From positions 3,815,001 through 3,879,000 of the forward strand of contig NZ_JAUSYQ010000002.1 in NCBI RefSeq assembly GCF_030816965.1: DNA of 64,000 bases, in the 5' to 3' direction. The notes below the pieces were generated by a model. That model was not told the origin of the DNA. It searched no databases and saw only the letters and a list, made by a program, of their open reading frames with translations. Positions within the stretch are counted from its first letter, which is position 1; every line of letters starts with the position of its first letter. The position numbers and the translations under genes are program-made. The DNA comes from Streptomyces canus (GTDB taxonomy: Bacteria; Actinomycetota; Actinomycetes; Streptomycetales; Streptomycetaceae). Shown piece by piece: positions 22,227-48,944 of the stretch.

Positions 22227-23180
22227 ATGCCGCTGACCGAGACACCAGGCACCGAGGCAGTCCCGGACACGCGGCTGCGCTGGTGGACCGAGCTGCCCCT
22301 GATCCTGTTGGTGTACGCCTGCTACAGCGCCGGCCGGCTCCTCGCCAGAGGCGATGTCACGGGCGCCGTCGACCACGGCCTGGCGATCCTCAAGGTCGAG
22401 AAGTTCCTCTACCTCAACGCCGAGCATCCGCTCAACCGGCTGTTCACCAGCCAGACCTGGATCGGCGTACCGGCCGACTTCTGGTACGCCTCGCTGCACT
22501 ACCTGGTCACGCCGGCCATCCTGGTCTGGCTCTTCCGCTCGCGCGCCCTGCACTACCGCGCGGCCCGCACCTGGCTGATGACGTCCACGTTCATGGGTCT
22601 GATCGGCTTCACCCTGCTGCCGACCTGCCCGCCCCGCCTCCTGTCCGCGAGCCACGGCTTCGTCGACACGATGGCCCAGTACAGCTCGTACGGCTGGTGG
22701 GGCGGCGAGGCGAGCGCCCCGCGGGGTATGGGCGGCATGACGAACCAGTACGCGGCCATGCCGAGCCTGCATGTCGGCTGGGCCCTGTGGTGCGGTGTGA
22801 TGCTGTGGCGCTACGGCAGGACGCGTACGACGAAGGTCGCGGCCGTCGCCTACCCGCTGATCACCACGATCGTGGTCATGGGCACCGCGAACCACTACTT
22901 CCTCGACGCGGTCGCGGGCGCGGCCGTGATGGGCGTCGGGTTCCTGCTCGCCCCGTACGTCACACGGGCCGCGGAGCGGGCCACGGCGGGCGTCCGGGCC
23001 CGGATAGCCCCCGTCACCGCCGTCTCGCGGGACGCGGAGCCCTCAATTGTCAGTGACGGATGCCAGACTTCCGCGGGTGAGCACATTCCACGGCAGCGCG
23101 AGTCAGGCTTCGGAAGCGGAACCGAGCCGAGTACCTCTCCCGCGGAAGCGGGGGACGGCGCTCCGGCAGCGGCTCGCTGA
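22227..23180 (+). CDS. PAP2-superfamily integral membrane protein
   Basis: 317 residues with about six membrane helices. PAP2-type motifs are present in the second half: MPSLHVGWALW (His of motif 2) and GTANHYFLDAVAGAAVM (His of motif 3). This fits inositol-phosphorylceramide-synthase-like PAP2 proteins of actinobacteria, which act on lipid-linked phosphates at the membrane. The last about 45 residues (SIVSDGCQTSAGEHIPRQRE ...) are hydrophilic and atypical. They overlap the first 104 bp of the nuclease gene, so the tail may be a read-through extension. Confidence 0.82.
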   Translation: MPLTETPGTEAVPDTRLRWWTELPLILLVYACYSAGRLLARGDVTGAVDHGLAILKVEKFLYLNAEHPLNRLFTSQTWIGVPADFWYASLHYLVTPAILVWLFRSRALHYRAARTWLMTSTFMGLIGFTLLPTCPPRLLSASHGFVDTMAQYSSYGWWGGEASAPRGMGGMTNQYAAMPSLHVGWALWCGVMLWRYGRTRTTKVAAVAYPLITTIVVMGTANHYFLDAVAGAAVMGVGFLLAPYVTRAAERATAGVRARIAPVTAVSRDAEPSIVSDGCQTSAGEHIPRQRESGFGSGTEPSTSPAEAGDGAPAAAR

Positions 23181-24255
23181 GCTGCGCGGGCCCGAGGTAG
23201 CGGCCAAGGCACTGGACGCGCGCGCCCTCGCGGCCCTCGCCGCGAACCCCGGGTGCAAGCGGCGCGCGATCCTCGACGGCGCCGGGGTGAACAAGACGGC
23301 GGTGGCGAGCGCGCTGGGCGCGCCGTCCGCCTTCGGGCAGTCGCAGTTCGCCCTGACGCGGGGCAACGCCTTCGAGGCGAAGGTCAAGGCGGACGGCGGC
23401 GCGGAGCTGCTGCGGCTGGTGCACGAGCGGCTGGACCGCACCGCGCAGCCCCCCGCCGACGCCCGGGTCCCCGACCTCACCGCGATCGGCCCCGAGGGCC
23501 GTACCGCGCGTACGGCCCTGGCCCTGCGCGAGGCCACAGCGGCAGCAGGCACCTGGACGCTGCTCGACCACCCGATGCTCGCGCTCGACGTCGCCGGCTC
23601 CCCCGCCTTCCTGGAACCGGACGCGGTGGTCGTGCACCCGGACGGCAGCTGGACGGTCGTGGAGATCAAGTCCTTCCCGATGCTGGACGGTTCTGCGGAC
23701 CCGGCGAAGGTGGGCGCGGCCGCCCGCCAGGCCGCGGTGTACGTCCTGGCACTGGAGGAGGTCGCCGCCCGTCTGGAACCGGCTCCGAGGGTCCGCCACC
23801 GGGTTCTGCTGGTCTGCCCCAAGGACTTCTCCAACCTGCCCACCGCCTCGGCCGTCGACATCCGCAAGCAGCGCACGGTCACCGCCCGCCAGCTGGCCCG
23901 TCTCACCCGCATCCAGGACATCGCCGACGCCCTGCCCGACGGCACCTGCTTCGACCCCGACCAGCCCGCCGCCGAACTGACCGCGGCCGTCGAGTCGGTC
24001 CCGGCGACCTACGCCCCCGAATGCCTGTCCGCGTGCGAACTGGCCTTCCACTGCCGGGACCGCTCCCGCGCGGCCGGCGCGGTGACCTCCCTGGGCCGCC
24101 CGGTACGCGCGGAACTGGGCGGCCTGACGACGGTCGAGGAGGTCCTGGCCGCGGCCCGCGGCGAGGCCGGCGATCCGGACGATCCGGCGGTGGCCGCCCT
24201 GCGCAGGGCGGCCGACCTGCGCGCGGAGGCGCTGGGGGTGACCGCGTGTCGCTGA
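23077..24255 (+). CDS. Four-cysteine (Fe-S type) PD-(D/E)XK nuclease
   Basis: 392 residues from the GTG at 23077 (GTG 23053 also possible). The nuclease core reads LEPDAVVVHPDGSWTVVEIK, giving Asp182, Glu196 and Lys198; the downstream RQAAVY supplies the QxxxY motif (Gln218, Tyr222). One cysteine precedes the core in NPGCKRRAIL (Cys60). Three follow it in ECLSACELAFHC (Cys316, Cys320, Cys326). This Cys-(core)-CX3CX5C layout is that of the iron-sulfur nucleases Cas4, AddB and Dna2. A ssDNA- or flap-cutting nuclease is therefore likely. It overlaps both neighbours and heads a three-gene operon ending in a helicase. Confidence 0.8.
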   Translation: MSTFHGSASQASEAEPSRVPLPRKRGTALRQRLAELRGPEVAAKALDARALAALAANPGCKRRAILDGAGVNKTAVASALGAPSAFGQSQFALTRGNAFEAKVKADGGAELLRLVHERLDRTAQPPADARVPDLTAIGPEGRTARTALALREATAAAGTWTLLDHPMLALDVAGSPAFLEPDAVVVHPDGSWTVVEIKSFPMLDGSADPAKVGAAARQAAVYVLALEEVAARLEPAPRVRHRVLLVCPKDFSNLPTASAVDIRKQRTVTARQLARLTRIQDIADALPDGTCFDPDQPAAELTAAVESVPATYAPECLSACELAFHCRDRSRAAGAVTSLGRPVRAELGGLTTVEEVLAAARGEAGDPDDPAVAALRRAADLRAEALGVTACR

Positions 24256-25838
24256 TCGCCACCCTCGCCCGCCTCGAAGCCGTCAGCACCGGCCGCGCCC
24301 AGCCCGCCGCGACCGTCCTTCACCGCCACCTCTCCGACCGCCCCCTCGTCCTCGTCCCGCTCACCACCGCGGGCGAGGCCGGTGCCCCGCTGGGCGCGCT
24401 CGTGGGCACCGACCGGGACGCGCCGCAGCTCCTGGTCGTACCGCAGCCGCGGGACCGGGAGCTCAGGTTCGCGTTCCTGGCCGAGCTGGCGGACATCGTG
24501 CTGCCGTACGTCGACGGATACGCCGAATCGGTGGAGTCCGCCGAGCGCAATGAGACCGATCCGGAGACCGGCAAGCGGGTCAAGGTCGAGGTCGAGCTGT
24601 GCGCGGACGCCCCGCAGCTGATCCTGCCGAGCCGCGCGGGCATCGATTTCGTACGGCTGCTCGGACGCTCCATGCGTTTCCGGCGTACGGCGGAGCAGGA
24701 CCCGGAGACCCCGTATCCGGCCCCGCCCCGGGTGCCGTTGCTGGGCCGGTGGCTGACCCACTTCGGGGAGCGGGCCCGGGTGCCCGGCTCCTCGCTGCTG
24801 CTGGCGATGACGGACGTACTGGGCCGGCACTGGTCCACCGGCCAGTCCACGCTGGAGGACCAGCACCTGGGGGCGCTGCTCTCGTGGATCGACCCGCCGC
24901 AGGGCCGCTCGGGCGCCGAGGCCGCGCTGGAGGCCGAGCTCGCCCGGGACGACCACGGCCAGCTGCTGCACCCGCCCGCGGGGCCCGCCACCGACCCGGC
25001 GTTCGACAACAAGCTGCTCGCCCCGGCCCTCTTGCGCTACGACCGCGCGCGTACCGCCCTCGCCGCCGCCGAGGACGGTCTGGAGGCCGACGACCGGCTC
25101 GGCGCGCTCACCGCCGCCGAGCAGGAGATCCGGGCCCTGGTCGCGAGTCGCACCCGGCCGACCTGGGACGCGGTGTGGCGGGGCATCGACCTGCTGCGGA
25201 CGCTGCCCGAGGGGGCGCACGCCGAGGAGCGGTGGACGCGCGACCGCTGGTCGTTCACGAGCCACCGCGACCGGGTCGTGGCGGGCGAGCCCCCGCAGCC
25301 GCGCCGCGACGACGCGGTCACCGCCGCCAACAAGCTCGCCGCGCGCGAGCGCGAACAGGCTCGTCTGGAGGCGCAGGAGGCGCTCGACGACCCGCTGGTG
25401 ATGGCGGGGCGGCGGCTGGCCGGGGAGGCGTTCGCCGGGGAGGTCACGGACGTCGTGATGACGTACAGCGAGGGCAAGCGGCCGAGCCCGCGCCCGCTGG
25501 TGACCGTACGGACCGACGACCGGCCGCATCTGGGCGAGCGGGCCAAGGTGTACCGCGCGCTGGGCGGGAAGCCACAGTCGGCCGAGTTCGTGGGGTACGA
25601 GGAGGAGGGCGCCCTCGTCGTCCTCAAGATCCTCGACAAGATGGGCCGCGGCAAGGAGCCCGAGACCGGGTCCGTGCCCGAGAAGGGCGACCGGGTGTGT
25701 TTCACGCTCTTCGAGCACGAGCAGCGCGGCGGCGCGAAGCTGCCGGACCCGGAGGACACACCGTGGACGCACGGCGGGCCGCCGGGTGAGGCCGTGCAGG
25801 AGACCGCCGATCCCCTGACCCCGGAGGACCTCCTGTGA
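24246..25838 (+). CDS. Unknown protein between nuclease and helicase
   Basis: 530 residues from the GTG at 24246, overlapping the nuclease end by 10 bp; its stop overlaps the helicase start (GTGA). No membrane segments. The first half contains repeated LVLVPL and LLVVPQP strands and a DIVLPYVDGY segment. The middle is helical and charged (AANKLAAREREQARLEAQEA). The C-terminal part (about 400-500) is beta-rich, with VRTDDRPHLGERAKVYRALG, then GALVVLKILDKMGRGKEPE and KGDRVCFTLFEHEQRGGAK; it could be an OB- or SH3-like nucleic-acid-binding domain. I do not recognise a family. Coupling suggests a structural partner of the nuclease and helicase. Confidence 0.75.
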   Translation: MSLIATLARLEAVSTGRAQPAATVLHRHLSDRPLVLVPLTTAGEAGAPLGALVGTDRDAPQLLVVPQPRDRELRFAFLAELADIVLPYVDGYAESVESAERNETDPETGKRVKVEVELCADAPQLILPSRAGIDFVRLLGRSMRFRRTAEQDPETPYPAPPRVPLLGRWLTHFGERARVPGSSLLLAMTDVLGRHWSTGQSTLEDQHLGALLSWIDPPQGRSGAEAALEAELARDDHGQLLHPPAGPATDPAFDNKLLAPALLRYDRARTALAAAEDGLEADDRLGALTAAEQEIRALVASRTRPTWDAVWRGIDLLRTLPEGAHAEERWTRDRWSFTSHRDRVVAGEPPQPRRDDAVTAANKLAAREREQARLEAQEALDDPLVMAGRRLAGEAFAGEVTDVVMTYSEGKRPSPRPLVTVRTDDRPHLGERAKVYRALGGKPQSAEFVGYEEEGALVVLKILDKMGRGKEPETGSVPEKGDRVCFTLFEHEQRGGAKLPDPEDTPWTHGGPPGEAVQETADPLTPEDLL

Positions 25839-27172
25839 CCACCCGGACCTTCGACCCCGGTGCCGAAGCCGCCCGCGCCACCGACGCGATCCTCCGCGAC
25901 ACCCTGCACGGCACCCACCGAGGTGTCGTCGTCGACTCCCCGCCCGGCGCCGGCAAGTCCACCCTCGTCGTCCGTGCCGCGCTGGAACTGGCCGACGCGG
26001 GGCGCTCCCTGATGGTCGTGGCGCAGACGAACGCCCAGGTGGACGATCTGGTCCTGCGGCTCGCCGAGAAGAATCCCGAACTGCCGGTCGGGCGGCTGCA
26101 CAGCAGTGACGCCGACCCGTACGACAAGGCGCTGGACGCGCTGGCGAACGTACGGAAGTCGGCGAAGGCGGGTGATCTGACCGGGCTGCCCGTGGTGATC
26201 TCCACGGCCGCCAAGTGGGGGCATGTGAAGGTCGACGAGCCGTGGGCGCACGCGATCGTGGACGAGGCGTACCAGATGCGCTCGGACGCGCTGCTGGCGG
26301 TGGCGGGGCTGTTCGAGCGGGCGTTGTTCGTGGGCGACCCCGGGCAGCTGGACCCGTTCGCGATCGTGGGCAGCGAGCAGTGGGCGGGGCTGTCGTACGA
26401 CCCCTCGGCCTCGGCGGTGACGACCCTGCTGGCCCACAACCCGGAGCTGCCCCAGCACCGCCTGCCGGTGTCCTGGCGGCTGCCCGCCTCGGCCGCGCCC
26501 CTGGTCTCGGACGCCTTCTACCCGTACACGCCCTTCCGCAGCGGCACGGACCACGGCGACCGCCGGCTCACCTTCGGCGTCCCCTCTGACGGCTCGGGCC
26601 CGGACCGGGTGATCGACGCGGCGGCGGAGTCCGGCTGGGGCCTGCTGGAGCTGCCCGCGCGGCACACTCCGCGCACGGACCCCGAGGCGGTACGGGCCGT
26701 CGCGACCGTCGTGCGACGGCTGCTGGACCGGGGCGGGGCGGCCACGTCGGAGCGCTCGCCGGACCCCGCGCCGCTCACCGCCGACCGCATCGCCGTGGGC
26801 ACGGCCCACCGCGACCAGGCGGCGGCCGTCCGCGCGGCGCTCGCCGACCTCGGCGTCATGGACGTCACCGTCGACACCGCGAACCGTCTTCAGGGCCGCG
26901 AGTACGACGTCACGGTCGTCCTCCACCCCCTCTCCGGCCGCCCCGACGCCACCGCCTTCCATCTGGAGACGGGCCGCCTGTGCGTCCTGGCCTCCCGACA
27001 CCGCCACGCGTGCGTCGTGGTGTGCCGCGCGGGCGTGAGCGAGCTCCTGGACGACTACCCGTCGACGGAGCCGGTCCAGCTGGGGACGCTGGTGAAGTTT
27101 CCGGACGGCTGGGAGGCGAACCACGCGGTACTGGCACGGCTGGCGGAGCACCGGGTGGCCTGGCGACCGTGA
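25835..27172 (+). CDS. Superfamily 1 (UPF1/DNA2-like) helicase
   Basis: 445 residues, GTG start overlapping the previous stop. Helicase motifs in order: Walker A PPGAGKST (residues 36-43), motif Ia VVAQTNAQVDDL, motif II DEAY (143-146), motif III GDPGQLDPF (167-175), motif IV-like SWRLP (213-217), motif V DTANRLQGREYD (347-358) and motif VI ASRHRH (386-391). Q-motif and large 1B/2B insertions are minimal, so it is a compact SF1B-like motor. Paired with the Fe-S nuclease it resembles a split Dna2 (nuclease plus helicase). Confidence 0.85.
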   Translation: MTTRTFDPGAEAARATDAILRDTLHGTHRGVVVDSPPGAGKSTLVVRAALELADAGRSLMVVAQTNAQVDDLVLRLAEKNPELPVGRLHSSDADPYDKALDALANVRKSAKAGDLTGLPVVISTAAKWGHVKVDEPWAHAIVDEAYQMRSDALLAVAGLFERALFVGDPGQLDPFAIVGSEQWAGLSYDPSASAVTTLLAHNPELPQHRLPVSWRLPASAAPLVSDAFYPYTPFRSGTDHGDRRLTFGVPSDGSGPDRVIDAAAESGWGLLELPARHTPRTDPEAVRAVATVVRRLLDRGGAATSERSPDPAPLTADRIAVGTAHRDQAAAVRAALADLGVMDVTVDTANRLQGREYDVTVVLHPLSGRPDATAFHLETGRLCVLASRHRHACVVVCRAGVSELLDDYPSTEPVQLGTLVKFPDGWEANHAVLARLAEHRVAWRP

Positions 27173-27308
27173 GCGGGAACATCGCGCGGGCCGTAGACCT
27201 TGGTACCGCCGGAGGCGCCCCGCCCTCTTGCATGGGCGCGGGACAATGGACGGTGGCCCATGCACAGACGGGCCGCCGGTACGGACGACGTACGAGGAGG
27301 ATGAAGAC

Positions 27309-27677
27309 ATGGCGGAGCCCACGCCGCGTCGGAACGAACCGCGGCTGCGCCCCGCGCCCCTGCTGTTCGAGCCCGCACAGGTGGCCGACGACCCGGAGCA
27401 CTTCTTCGACCTCGAGTCGATGGACGACCCGCGCGCGCTGCTGAGCCGGTCCACCGAGCTGGCGCACGCCTTCCGTGCGGCGGCGGACCGTGCCGTGGAG
27501 TTCCAGGCGATGGCGGCGGCGCAGTTGGCCGACCCCAGGCGCTTCGACCGGCTCACGACGGCCGACATCGCCGAGCGCGCGGAGTGGACCGAGGACTACG
27601 CCAAGAAGATGGTCGAGTTCGGCCGGGATCTGCTGCGGGGCGCGGAGGGCGGAGCGGGGCACGCCGACCCCGTGTGA
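27309..27677 (+). CDS. Small conserved acidic hypothetical protein
   Basis: 122 residues, cytoplasmic. A basic start (PTPRRNEPRLRPAP) is followed by an acidic helix-rich body (FFDLESMDDPRALLSRSTEL ... YAKKMVEFGRDLL). ATG at 27309 with GAGGAGG at the right distance. It lies 136 bp after the helicase and could be a separate unit. No domain recognised. Confidence 0.65.
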   Translation: MAEPTPRRNEPRLRPAPLLFEPAQVADDPEHFFDLESMDDPRALLSRSTELAHAFRAAADRAVEFQAMAAAQLADPRRFDRLTTADIAERAEWTEDYAKKMVEFGRDLLRGAEGGAGHADPV

Positions 27678-27724
27678 GCCACGGGCACCGCCCTCGCCGC
27701 CGCGCCATAGCCGCCGAAACAATC

Positions 27725-27740
27725 CCTGGCATATGCCAGG
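27725..27740. promoter_or_regulatory. 16-bp perfect palindrome CCTGGCATATGCCAGG
   Basis: A perfect dyad 90-105 bp upstream of the ATG at 27830 and 48 bp after the preceding stop. It looks like an operator half-site pair. The related sequence CTGGCATGTGCCAG occurs at 42058-42071, so the two may bind the same regulator. The regulator is not known. Confidence 0.4.
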
Positions 27741-27829
27741 CAGGCAAGATACCCCTCCTCGGCCCCTCCTGTCCCGATTTTCCGCAACCCTGTGGAACGG
27801 CCTGCTCACGCCCGGTAGATGTAGGTGGC

Positions 27830-28420
27830 ATGAGCACTCGCGACGAACCGCTCTCCGACACACGCTTCGACGTCTCCGGCGTCACCGCGGAGGGAGCCGC
27901 CTGGCTCGCCTCGGCGGGCACGTACCCGCGCAGCACCCTCGCGCTGTGGGAGGAGCGCCCCGCGGCCCCGGTCGTTCTGCCCTGCGGCACCGCCTTCGAC
28001 GTGGTGAGCGCCCCCGCGATCTTCGGACGCCGGATGCTCGACCGGCTCTGGGAGGAGGGGCCGGGCTCGGGGCCGGTGGCGACACTCCGGGCGCGAATGC
28101 TGCTGTTCGCGGCGCCCGGCACGGCTCAGCGGCTGCCGTCGCTGTTGCGGTGGGAGGAGATCGGCCGTACGGCCGCGATCCCGCCGCTGCTGTGCCACGG
28201 CATCGGCGACGCGGTCACCGTCCCGGCCCCGCTGAGCGCCCCGGAATCCACGCCGACCTCCCGCTGGCTGGTCGCCCCCGACACCCGCCACCCCTGGCTG
28301 CCGGGCCCGGAAATCCTGCTCTGGGCGGCGGTACGAGCGGCTCGCGCCGCCGTGCGGATATCGATTTTTCCCCCCGCCGATCAGGATGCTAAGGTCTACG
28401 ACGTCAGCAGGCGCCGCTAG
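27830..28420 (+). CDS. Prim-pol-like short protein ending inside a tRNA gene
   Basis: 196 residues from the ATG at 27830. The core GTAFDVVSAPAIFGRRMLDRL ... RMLLFAAPGTAQRLPSLLRW parallels the protein at 19290-19682. Both look like shortened bifunctional primase/polymerase-type domains without obvious catalytic acids. The C-terminus PPADQDAKVYDVSRRR is encoded partly by the tRNA-Lys acceptor region. The TAG stop (28418-28420) lies within the first ten bases of the tRNA, so transcription of this gene may lead into it. Confidence 0.65.
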   Translation: MSTRDEPLSDTRFDVSGVTAEGAAWLASAGTYPRSTLALWEERPAAPVVLPCGTAFDVVSAPAIFGRRMLDRLWEEGPGSGPVATLRARMLLFAAPGTAQRLPSLLRWEEIGRTAAIPPLLCHGIGDAVTVPAPLSAPESTPTSRWLVAPDTRHPWLPGPEILLWAAVRAARAAVRISIFPPADQDAKVYDVSRRR

Positions 28421-28484
28421 CTCAGTTGGTTAGAGCAGCTGACTCTTAATCAGCGGGTCCGGGGTTCGAGTCCCTGGCGGCGCA
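28411..28484 (+). tRNA. tRNA-Lys(CTT), copy 1
   Basis: 74 nt with the full cloverleaf: acceptor stem GCGCCGC/GCGGCGC, D arm, anticodon CTT in GACTCTTAATC, T arm GGGGTTCGAGTCCC, and discriminator A at 28484. CCA is not encoded. The sequence is identical to copies 2 and 3. Its first ten bases overlap the 3' end of the preceding CDS. Confidence 0.97.
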
Positions 28485-28491
28485 CAGACAG

Positions 28492-43073: not shown

Positions 43074-43147
43074 GCGCCGCTAGCTCAGTTGGTTAGAGCA
43101 GCTGACTCTTAATCAGCGGGTCCGGGGTTCGAGTCCCTGGCGGCGCA
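43074..43147 (+). tRNA. tRNA-Lys(CTT), copy 2
   Basis: 74 nt, identical to copy 1: acceptor GCGCCGC/GCGGCGC, anticodon CTT, discriminator A. A short AT-rich element (AGTATTTTTCTG near 43027) upstream may be its promoter. Confidence 0.97.
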
Positions 43148-43152
43148 CCGGT

Positions 43153-48860: not shown

Positions 48861-48934
48861 GCGCCGCTAGCTCAGTTGGTTAGAGCAGCTGACTCTTAAT
48901 CAGCGGGTCCGGGGTTCGAGTCCCTGGCGGCGCA
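48861..48934 (+). tRNA. tRNA-Lys(CTT), copy 3
   Basis: 74 nt, identical to copies 1 and 2. The 10 bp before it (AGGTCAGCAG-like) resemble the sequence before copy 1, suggesting that the flank was duplicated too. Confidence 0.97.
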
Positions 48935-48944
48935 CCGACGATGC

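Follow-up and report, generated by a model that had tools for sequence, protein, structure and literature searches.

The subject of this article is a three-gene operon of Streptomyces canus, nuc-mid-hel, which lies in a stretch of 64,000 nucleotides (NCBI RefSeq assembly GCF_030816965.1, contig NZ_JAUSYQ010000002.1) that we analysed as a whole and refer to as the window; it spans 3.815-3.879 Mb of a 10.66-Mb genome and is locus L001 in our comparisons. The operon probably encodes the separate chains of a Dna2-like machine, namely a putative nuclease, a middle protein that belongs to no recognised family and a superfamily 1 (SF1) helicase motor, and it stands behind a promoter motif of DNA-damage type. 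The features of interest are as follows.

23047..23069, + strand: RecA-NDp-type (PafBC/ClgR-class) DNA-damage promoter motif, TTGTCAGTG-N8-CAGACT, 30 nt ahead of the nuc start codon
23077..24255, + strand: nuc, 392 aa, GTG start; predicted RecB-family nuclease of the iron-staple type
23254-23256, 23620-23622 and 23662-23670, + strand: nuc codons for Cys60, Asp182 and Glu196-Ile-Lys198
24022-24024, 24034-24036 and 24052-24054, + strand: nuc C-terminal cysteine codons for Cys316, Cys320 and Cys326
24246..25838, + strand: mid, 530 aa; no fold assigned by family searches, constant companion of nuc
25835..27172, + strand: hel, 445 aa; compact SF1 UPF1/DNA2-like helicase motor, with Walker A SPPGAGKST at residues 35-43, DEAYQ at 143-147, GDPGQLD at 167-173 and QGRE at 353-356

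The genes overlap by 10 bp (24246-24255) and by 4 bp (GTGA, 25835-25838), as a first-pass annotation of this DNA had stated and the coordinates of the open reading frames (ORFs) bear out, and each is shared by 14 of 16 loci of the same genus when starts are picked to match those of the window and the nuc of L017 is excluded. A PAP2-phosphatase gene (22227-23180, PF14378) overlaps the start of nuc with its 3' end. A longer nuc ORF could begin at a TTG at 23047, and we prefer 23077 because that TTG sits within the promoter motif.

According to the available text of PMC7430649, iron-staple nucleases are recognised by their RecB motifs together with four conserved cysteines, and nuc has both, with four RecB motifs and with one cysteine before the core and three after it. 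The motifs RGxxFE, EPD, EIK and QxxxY are near-invariant in an alignment of 133 rows, at least three of which duplicate a locus that was retrieved twice. Where rows are ungapped, Glu100 is kept in 120/128, Asp182 in 130/132, Glu196 in 124/132, Lys198 in 123/132, Gln218 in 132/132 and Tyr222 in 131/132, and the exceptions at Glu196 and Lys198 are exclusively rows of clade C, which is discussed below. The cysteines of nuc lie at residues 60, 247, 291, 316, 320, 326 and 391, among them Cys60 and a CX3CX5C pattern (316-320-326); the three residues of that pattern are kept in all 133 rows, and Cys60 in all 122 rows that are ungapped there, the remaining 11 being gapped. The four-cysteine pattern that the first-pass annotation had read beside a PD-(D/E)XK core in one sequence thus exceeds coincidence. 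The assignment of nuc to the iron-staple type is supported at the level of sequence, and we would predict both an iron-sulfur (Fe-S) cluster and enzymatic activity. As a single sequence, the window's nuc has no match in Pfam, NCBIfam or PADLOC, and a PDB profile search gave no meaningful match; the hits to de novo repeat proteins, like one with E 0.7 to an 'ssDNA binding protein', were set aside as effects of composition or chance.

The helicase matches AAA_11 (E 1.1e-11) and AAA_12 (E 9.9e-8) above their curated cut-offs, its best PDB matches include DNA2, SMUBP-2 and UPF1, and its tabulated motif residues are near-invariant, with few exceptions, over 122 rows, all of which agrees with the compact 445-residue SF1 motor described at first pass. 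By profile it matches the motor of fused bacterial DNA2-like proteins at E 1.5e-24, using a set of ten proteins that included wrong-frame ORFs; two were dropped for a later comparison with the remaining eight, and when nuc, mid and hel were compared with the fused proteins profile to profile, hel alone was significant. Family membership would make hel an SF1B enzyme that translocates 5'-3'. Matches to NCBIfam PLuB and PADLOC Mokosh covered the motor only and were rejected as membership of those systems.

The middle protein has no credible family in Pfam, NCBIfam, PADLOC or PDB profiles, whether the search starts from the single sequence or from its relatives, so the earlier remark that it resembles nothing recognised holds. 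For its C-terminus, which the first-pass annotation thought might be a beta domain that binds nucleic acid, no credible Pfam or PDB profile match appeared either. What its relatives do mostly conserve is a C-terminal motif, TPWTHGGPP. The idea that mid is the source of the 1B barrel missing from the compact hel motor was put aside as speculation when a profile-profile comparison gave no signal (E 0.19), and a viral or phage origin was rejected, since phage records and viral contigs gave no relative of mid.

In the class to which the window belongs, mid was found in 29 of 197 genomes, and 16 of the 29 share the genus of the window; with a paralogous mid as query it is found in 281 of 295 Streptomyces genomes. 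The name Streptomyces for the same-genus genomes is taken from what the closest proteins are called. A scan of genomes of other actinobacteria gave at least 550 relatives, from which the best 80 loci were taken; their genera include Nocardia, Actinomadura, Streptosporangium, Nonomuraea, Micromonospora, Frankia, Kibdelosporangium and Dactylosporangium, all of which we take to be mycelium-forming, and we claim no link with filamentous growth from a list of the best 80 of at least 550. In every one of these 80 loci nuc lies immediately 5' of mid, so that the third partner proposed at first pass for a split Dna2-like machine is indeed a constant one, and in 70 of them hel lies 3' of mid, four times after an insert. 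These inserts, of about 1-2.5 kb, occur in L072, L073, L080 and L091 (three Micromonospora and one Sphaerisporangium). Wherever hel is away or missing, nuc and mid are still adjacent.

In a sample of 296 genomes across the phylum the nuc profile matches 12 genomes and the mid profile 12, with 11 in common. The two singletons, G348 and G427, lie outside the class, and both carry the complete trio in order; three of their four junctions are 4-bp overlaps, and the locus-level E values are 4e-30 and 4e-28 for nuc, 8e-20 and 4e-20 for mid, and 4e-62 and 6e-68 for hel; their nuc proteins retain the four cysteines and the core Asp, Glu, Lys, Gln and Tyr. Because both singletons hold the complete trio, all 13 genomes with either profile match hold nuc and mid. 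The nuc, mid and hel trees all recover three monophyletic clades, A, B and C; their deeper branches are mostly poorly supported and discordant between trees. Gene order, shared genomes in the phylum sample and the same three clades in all trees lead us to treat the trio as one unit. For these comparisons two of 80 nuc rows were dropped (L054, open N-terminus; L077, a stop from extraction), one of 80 mid rows (L107, contig end) and two of 70 hel rows (L099 and L103, stops from extraction); the alignments took in 78 of 80 mid loci (leaving out L107 and the near-identical L034) plus 10 of the 120 listed proteins, 77 of 80 nuc and 34 of the 68 usable hel. Loci L030 and L181 are one copy, and the mid sequences of L024 and L032 do not differ.

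The sequence at 23047-23069, 30 nt before the nuc start, is TTGTCAGTGACGGATGCCAGACT. Set against tTGTCRgtg-N8-TAnnnT, its TTGTCAGTG is exact and the first -10 base is C rather than T, which, with the customary spacing, gives it the form of a RecA-NDp promoter. The accessible part of PMC5656591 gives the consensus tTGTCRgtg-N8-TannnT for LexA/RecA-independent DNA-damage genes of M. tuberculosis, and that of PMC5087735 names such promoters RecA-NDp in Streptomyces. The best motif class, with the 9-mer exact, occurs in 17 of 127 upstream regions, representing 16 distinct loci (L001-L015 and L183) that are all core Streptomyces, and in 0.016% of 6350 mononucleotide shuffles. The 9-mer has one mismatch in L016 and two in L185, and the upstream region of L184 is cut off. 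Coding for PAP2 does not explain the motif, because it is kept in L011 and L015, where the upstream match is a histidine phosphatase and not PAP2.

Across the S. canus genome there are 98 matches to the motif and three to the reversed pattern, and it stands 24-72 nt 5' of dinB, rarA, ruvB, uvrA, uvrB and ogt. Ten downstream ORFs were profiled, hand-picked mostly as recognised repair genes from the first 30 of the 98 matches and thus not a random sample; they encode a DinB-type polymerase, RarA/MgsA, RuvB, a DEAD-box helicase, UvrA, UvrB, an O6-methylguanine methyltransferase (Ogt), an endonuclease-VII-like protein, a RecD2-HHH protein and one protein without a family. Some matches are not promoters, since 8 of 32 motif rows have no downstream ORF by our working rule, and several others have short or doubtful ones. 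An extended form of the trio's own site is found in 199 of 295 Streptomyces genomes, with no match to the reversed pattern among the rows listed, and mid follows it at 1.2-1.5 kb in all 20 genomes that were paired by eye, these being the ones in which both positions were visible; G562 has the extended motif and no mid match. The core Streptomyces operon thus looks like one that carries a DNA-damage switch, and both induction and dependence on PafBC would be expected of it. As an observation in its own right, the 98 motifs against three mean that a LexA-independent DNA-damage regulon may exist in S. canus, in tension with a remark in PMC9380542 that is taken up below.

Our preferred reading, which we hold to be probable rather than assured, is that nuc, mid and hel form a split Dna2-like machine for processing DNA ends, with a repair role here and recruitment to defence loci elsewhere. 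The three proteins would make one complex, in which an Fe-S RecB-family nuclease and an SF1B motor are separate chains that mid joins or regulates: hel would move along single-stranded DNA, nuc would trim it, and mid would bridge the two and may supply DNA binding. In Streptomyces this would be a core genome-maintenance operon whose expression is raised by DNA damage through the RecA-NDp-type promoter, and the most likely substrates would be DNA ends, flaps and stalled-fork intermediates, unwound and trimmed for recombinational repair. Where the genes lie beside SbcCD, the complex could take over ends opened by Mre11-Rad50, as happens in archaeal and eukaryotic resection.

Several observations weigh against such a reading, and it is only fair to take them together. 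No mid match was found in 14 of the 295 Streptomyces genomes with the paralogous query, and the exact extended promoter site is missing from 96. Among the 127 upstream regions, the best-class motif is found in no other genus, nor in clades B and C, so the case for DNA-damage control covers the core Streptomyces loci only. The available text of PMC9380542 states that, on an initial search, S. venezuelae seemed not to conserve the PafBC motif of M. smegmatis. The nuclease reaches Pfam PDDEXK_1 weakly, through 7 of 78 relatives (E up to 1, best 0.0048, the window's nuc not among them) and 6 of 26 relatives chosen for diversity (best E 0.0033), and its profile-profile comparison with fused DNA2-like proteins is non-significant (E 0.07), in a test that two accepted RecB-like families, used as a control, also failed (E 0.063). 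Finally, hel is missing from the fetched flank in 10 of the 80 loci (nine Micromonospora and one Verrucosispora), one of which sits on a contig that ends there, while five other Micromonospora have hel; in G095 and G196 about 36 and 49 kb separate hel from nuc-mid. The first-pass annotation had looked to regular separation of the three genes as the sign that it was wrong, and this is seen in part, for hel in those ten loci and two genomes and never between nuc and mid.

How, then, does the trio compare with what is already known? The cysteine spacing of Cas4, AddB and DNA2 is CX2CX5C. In AddAB/AdnAB an iron-staple nuclease (AddB) is paired with an SF1 motor at DNA ends; the motors there are UvrD-like SF1A, in contrast to the UPF1/DNA2-like hel, and we know of no mid-like subunit in those enzymes. 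HerA is an FtsK-like hexamer, and NurA is not known to be an Fe-S protein. The archaeal Mre11-Rad50-HerA-NurA system, in which a helicase and a nuclease are coupled to Mre11-Rad50 (accessible part of PMC5715905), resembles the trio through gene neighbourhood, namely a link to SbcCD: of the 102 mapped loci, 10 have sbcD next to the module, and in Kibdelosporangium (L103) and Micromonospora (L077) it lies 3' on the same strand. Bad of Geobacillus stearothermophilus and eukaryotic DNA2 have four RecB motifs and four spanning cysteines, as set out in the available text of PMC7430649, which also mentions a second DNA2-like class in Mycobacteria and Rhodococcus. With Bad and DNA2 the operon shares, by sequence, an iron-staple RecB-family nuclease and an SF1B motor, and its order of nuclease, middle protein and motor would be collinear with DNA2, the N-to-C order of the one being the gene order of the other. 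They differ in that Bad and DNA2 are single polypeptides, whereas the window and its mapped relatives have separate genes and, in addition, mid; the nuc spacing is CX3CX5C, and nuc has no significant profile match to the fused family. The TM0106-type RecB nuclease-helicases (TIGR03491) have a motor clearly homologous to hel, at the E value given above, and differ likewise in being fused; among the genomes listed, three of the same genus, S. canus included, lack a TIGR03491 match, and G031 holds the fused and split types together. Among the papers listed on RecB/Cas4/Dna2 nucleases, Wadjet, RecA-NDp and Streptomyces resection, with few subscription journals among them, none describes the operon in its title or the opening of its abstract.

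Accessory copies of the trio adjoin modules of two defence systems, Wadjet (JetABCD) and pPIWI-RE. A fourth gene of about 280 aa, whose product looks like a coiled coil in its N-terminal part, lies 5' of nuc in 79 of the 102 mapped nuc-bearing loci, and also in L167 and L168, where the gene caller missed it; it is carried by all 17 clade B and C loci and has no family match. The window, L183 and L185 show no such gene 5' of nuc, and its best E across the S. canus genome was 0.22. Clade B comprises nine loci, two on plasmids and seven in genomes, and represents further Streptomyces copies of the trio; sbcD is adjacent in seven, and Wadjet lies directly 3' in six, of type I at L134, L135 and L170 and of type II at L167, L169 and L171 (neighbours profile-checked on L135 and L171). 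The clade B genomes, seven in all, have a single DUF3375 (type I JetA), beside the trio; DUF2397 (type II JetA) is seen six times, spread over three genomes, and three of these six occurrences are beside the trio. A distance of 6.8 kb separates the clade B copy of G554 from the end of its 8.27-Mb contig, which agrees with the enrichment of Wadjet toward Streptomyces chromosome ends given in the available text of PMC10482375. At that locus (L168, G554:C1:1-20000) sbcC-sbcD and the quartet fill the first ~10 kb of the contig. In clade C, all eight loci adjoin a divergent three-gene set of pPIWI-RE type, which in L176, the one locus that was profile-checked, matches PprPDDEXK, PprRE/pPIWI_RE_Y and PprDinG/pPIWI_RE_Z. 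Here Arg replaces Lys198 of nuc in 8/8 loci and Leu replaces Glu196 in 7/8, and the three C-terminal cysteines are kept in every row. Directly 3' of clade C hel we also observed SNF2-type helicases (C3a139-like and HmaA-like by PADLOC), at L176:10235-13411 and L178:10695-13919, which suggests larger defence islands.

Within the preferred reading, the four-gene paralogues beside SbcCD and Wadjet or pPIWI-RE would probably process DNA that is cut there: behind Wadjet the complex would destroy linearised plasmid, and in clade C the neighbouring PprPDDEXK nuclease could substitute for a dead nuc. A bolder version is possible, and we offer it tentatively. It would see in these genes a split, multi-chain 'Mre11-Rad50 + Dna2' resectosome that acts behind Wadjet and pPIWI-RE immunity to destroy DNA ends, Wadjet opening circular plasmids and SbcCD with the quartet then degrading the linear product; Streptomyces would have domesticated it as a DNA-damage-inducible repair complex with mid as a new essential subunit, and clade C nuc would be a catalytically dead Fe-S scaffold.

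The same neighbourhoods raise the question of whether the trio is primarily an anti-plasmid or anti-phage module, whose core Streptomyces copy is domesticated or constitutive immunity that degrades incoming or linearised DNA. We regard this as rather unlikely, even though the Wadjet genes of both types behind clade B, the pPIWI-RE-type genes beside clade C, the SNF2-type defence helicases 3' in both clade C loci scanned, and the clade B copies on plasmids and near one chromosome end all speak for it, as do two more type II JetA genes, in G101 and G705, at 9 and 12 kb from a copy of the trio. Against it stand the near-universal presence of mid in Streptomyces and the repair-type promoter motif of the core operon; a tblastn search for type I Jet proteins was negative for the window and for the 80 loci, type II not having been searched there; PADLOC 2.0.0 has no model for nuc, mid or the fourth gene and gives hel partial helicase matches only, which also sets the trio apart from Wadjet and pPIWI-RE themselves; and mid has no relatives in phage records or viral contigs. 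The 'defence complex' of the first-pass annotation is thus better suited to the accessory paralogues than to this copy.

That the genes are merely co-transcribed, with nuc-mid as one unit and hel as an independent helicase, is improbable: the ten hel-less loci in which nuc and mid are still joined favour it, whereas G095 and G196 do still have hel at a distance, the order of the trio is kept in two genomes outside the class, and the same clades recur in all gene trees. Least probable of all is a machine that acts on RNA or RNA:DNA hybrids (R-loops) in transcription-replication conflict, since against the matches of hel to UPF1 and SMUBP-2 besides DNA2, which place it in the UPF1-like branch and make such a substrate possible, active RecB-family iron-staple nucleases act on DNA (established knowledge; available text of PMC7430649), and the neighbours of the paralogues (SbcCD, Wadjet, pPIWI-RE) and the other promoter targets are DNA-centred.

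Two ORFs follow the operon in the window: a small one (27228-27677), also matched behind hel in L002 and L005, and a Prim-Pol-like one (27584-28420; PF09250, E 1.6e-5) that ends at a tRNA-Lys gene. Within about 20 kb lie three tRNA-Lys(CTT) genes with full-length identity (28411-28485, 43074-43149 and 48861-48936), the first two each followed after 48 nt by an unassigned tRNA-like call, and the triplet could mark duplicated integration sites.

Streptomyces have linear chromosomes that are prone to breakage and rearrangement, and their DNA-end-processing enzymes are only partly known. If our preferred reading is true, the operon would add a repair complex that is near-universal, in the genomes sampled, in the main antibiotic-producing genus, and with it a protein family without an assigned fold, mid. 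Because clades exist that are linked to Wadjet on the one hand, and are apparently nuclease-dead and linked to pPIWI-RE on the other, the fate of DNA after a Wadjet cut becomes directly testable. The paralogues, with two Wadjet types at the same position behind one clade, would then link DNA repair with anti-plasmid and pPIWI-RE immunity.

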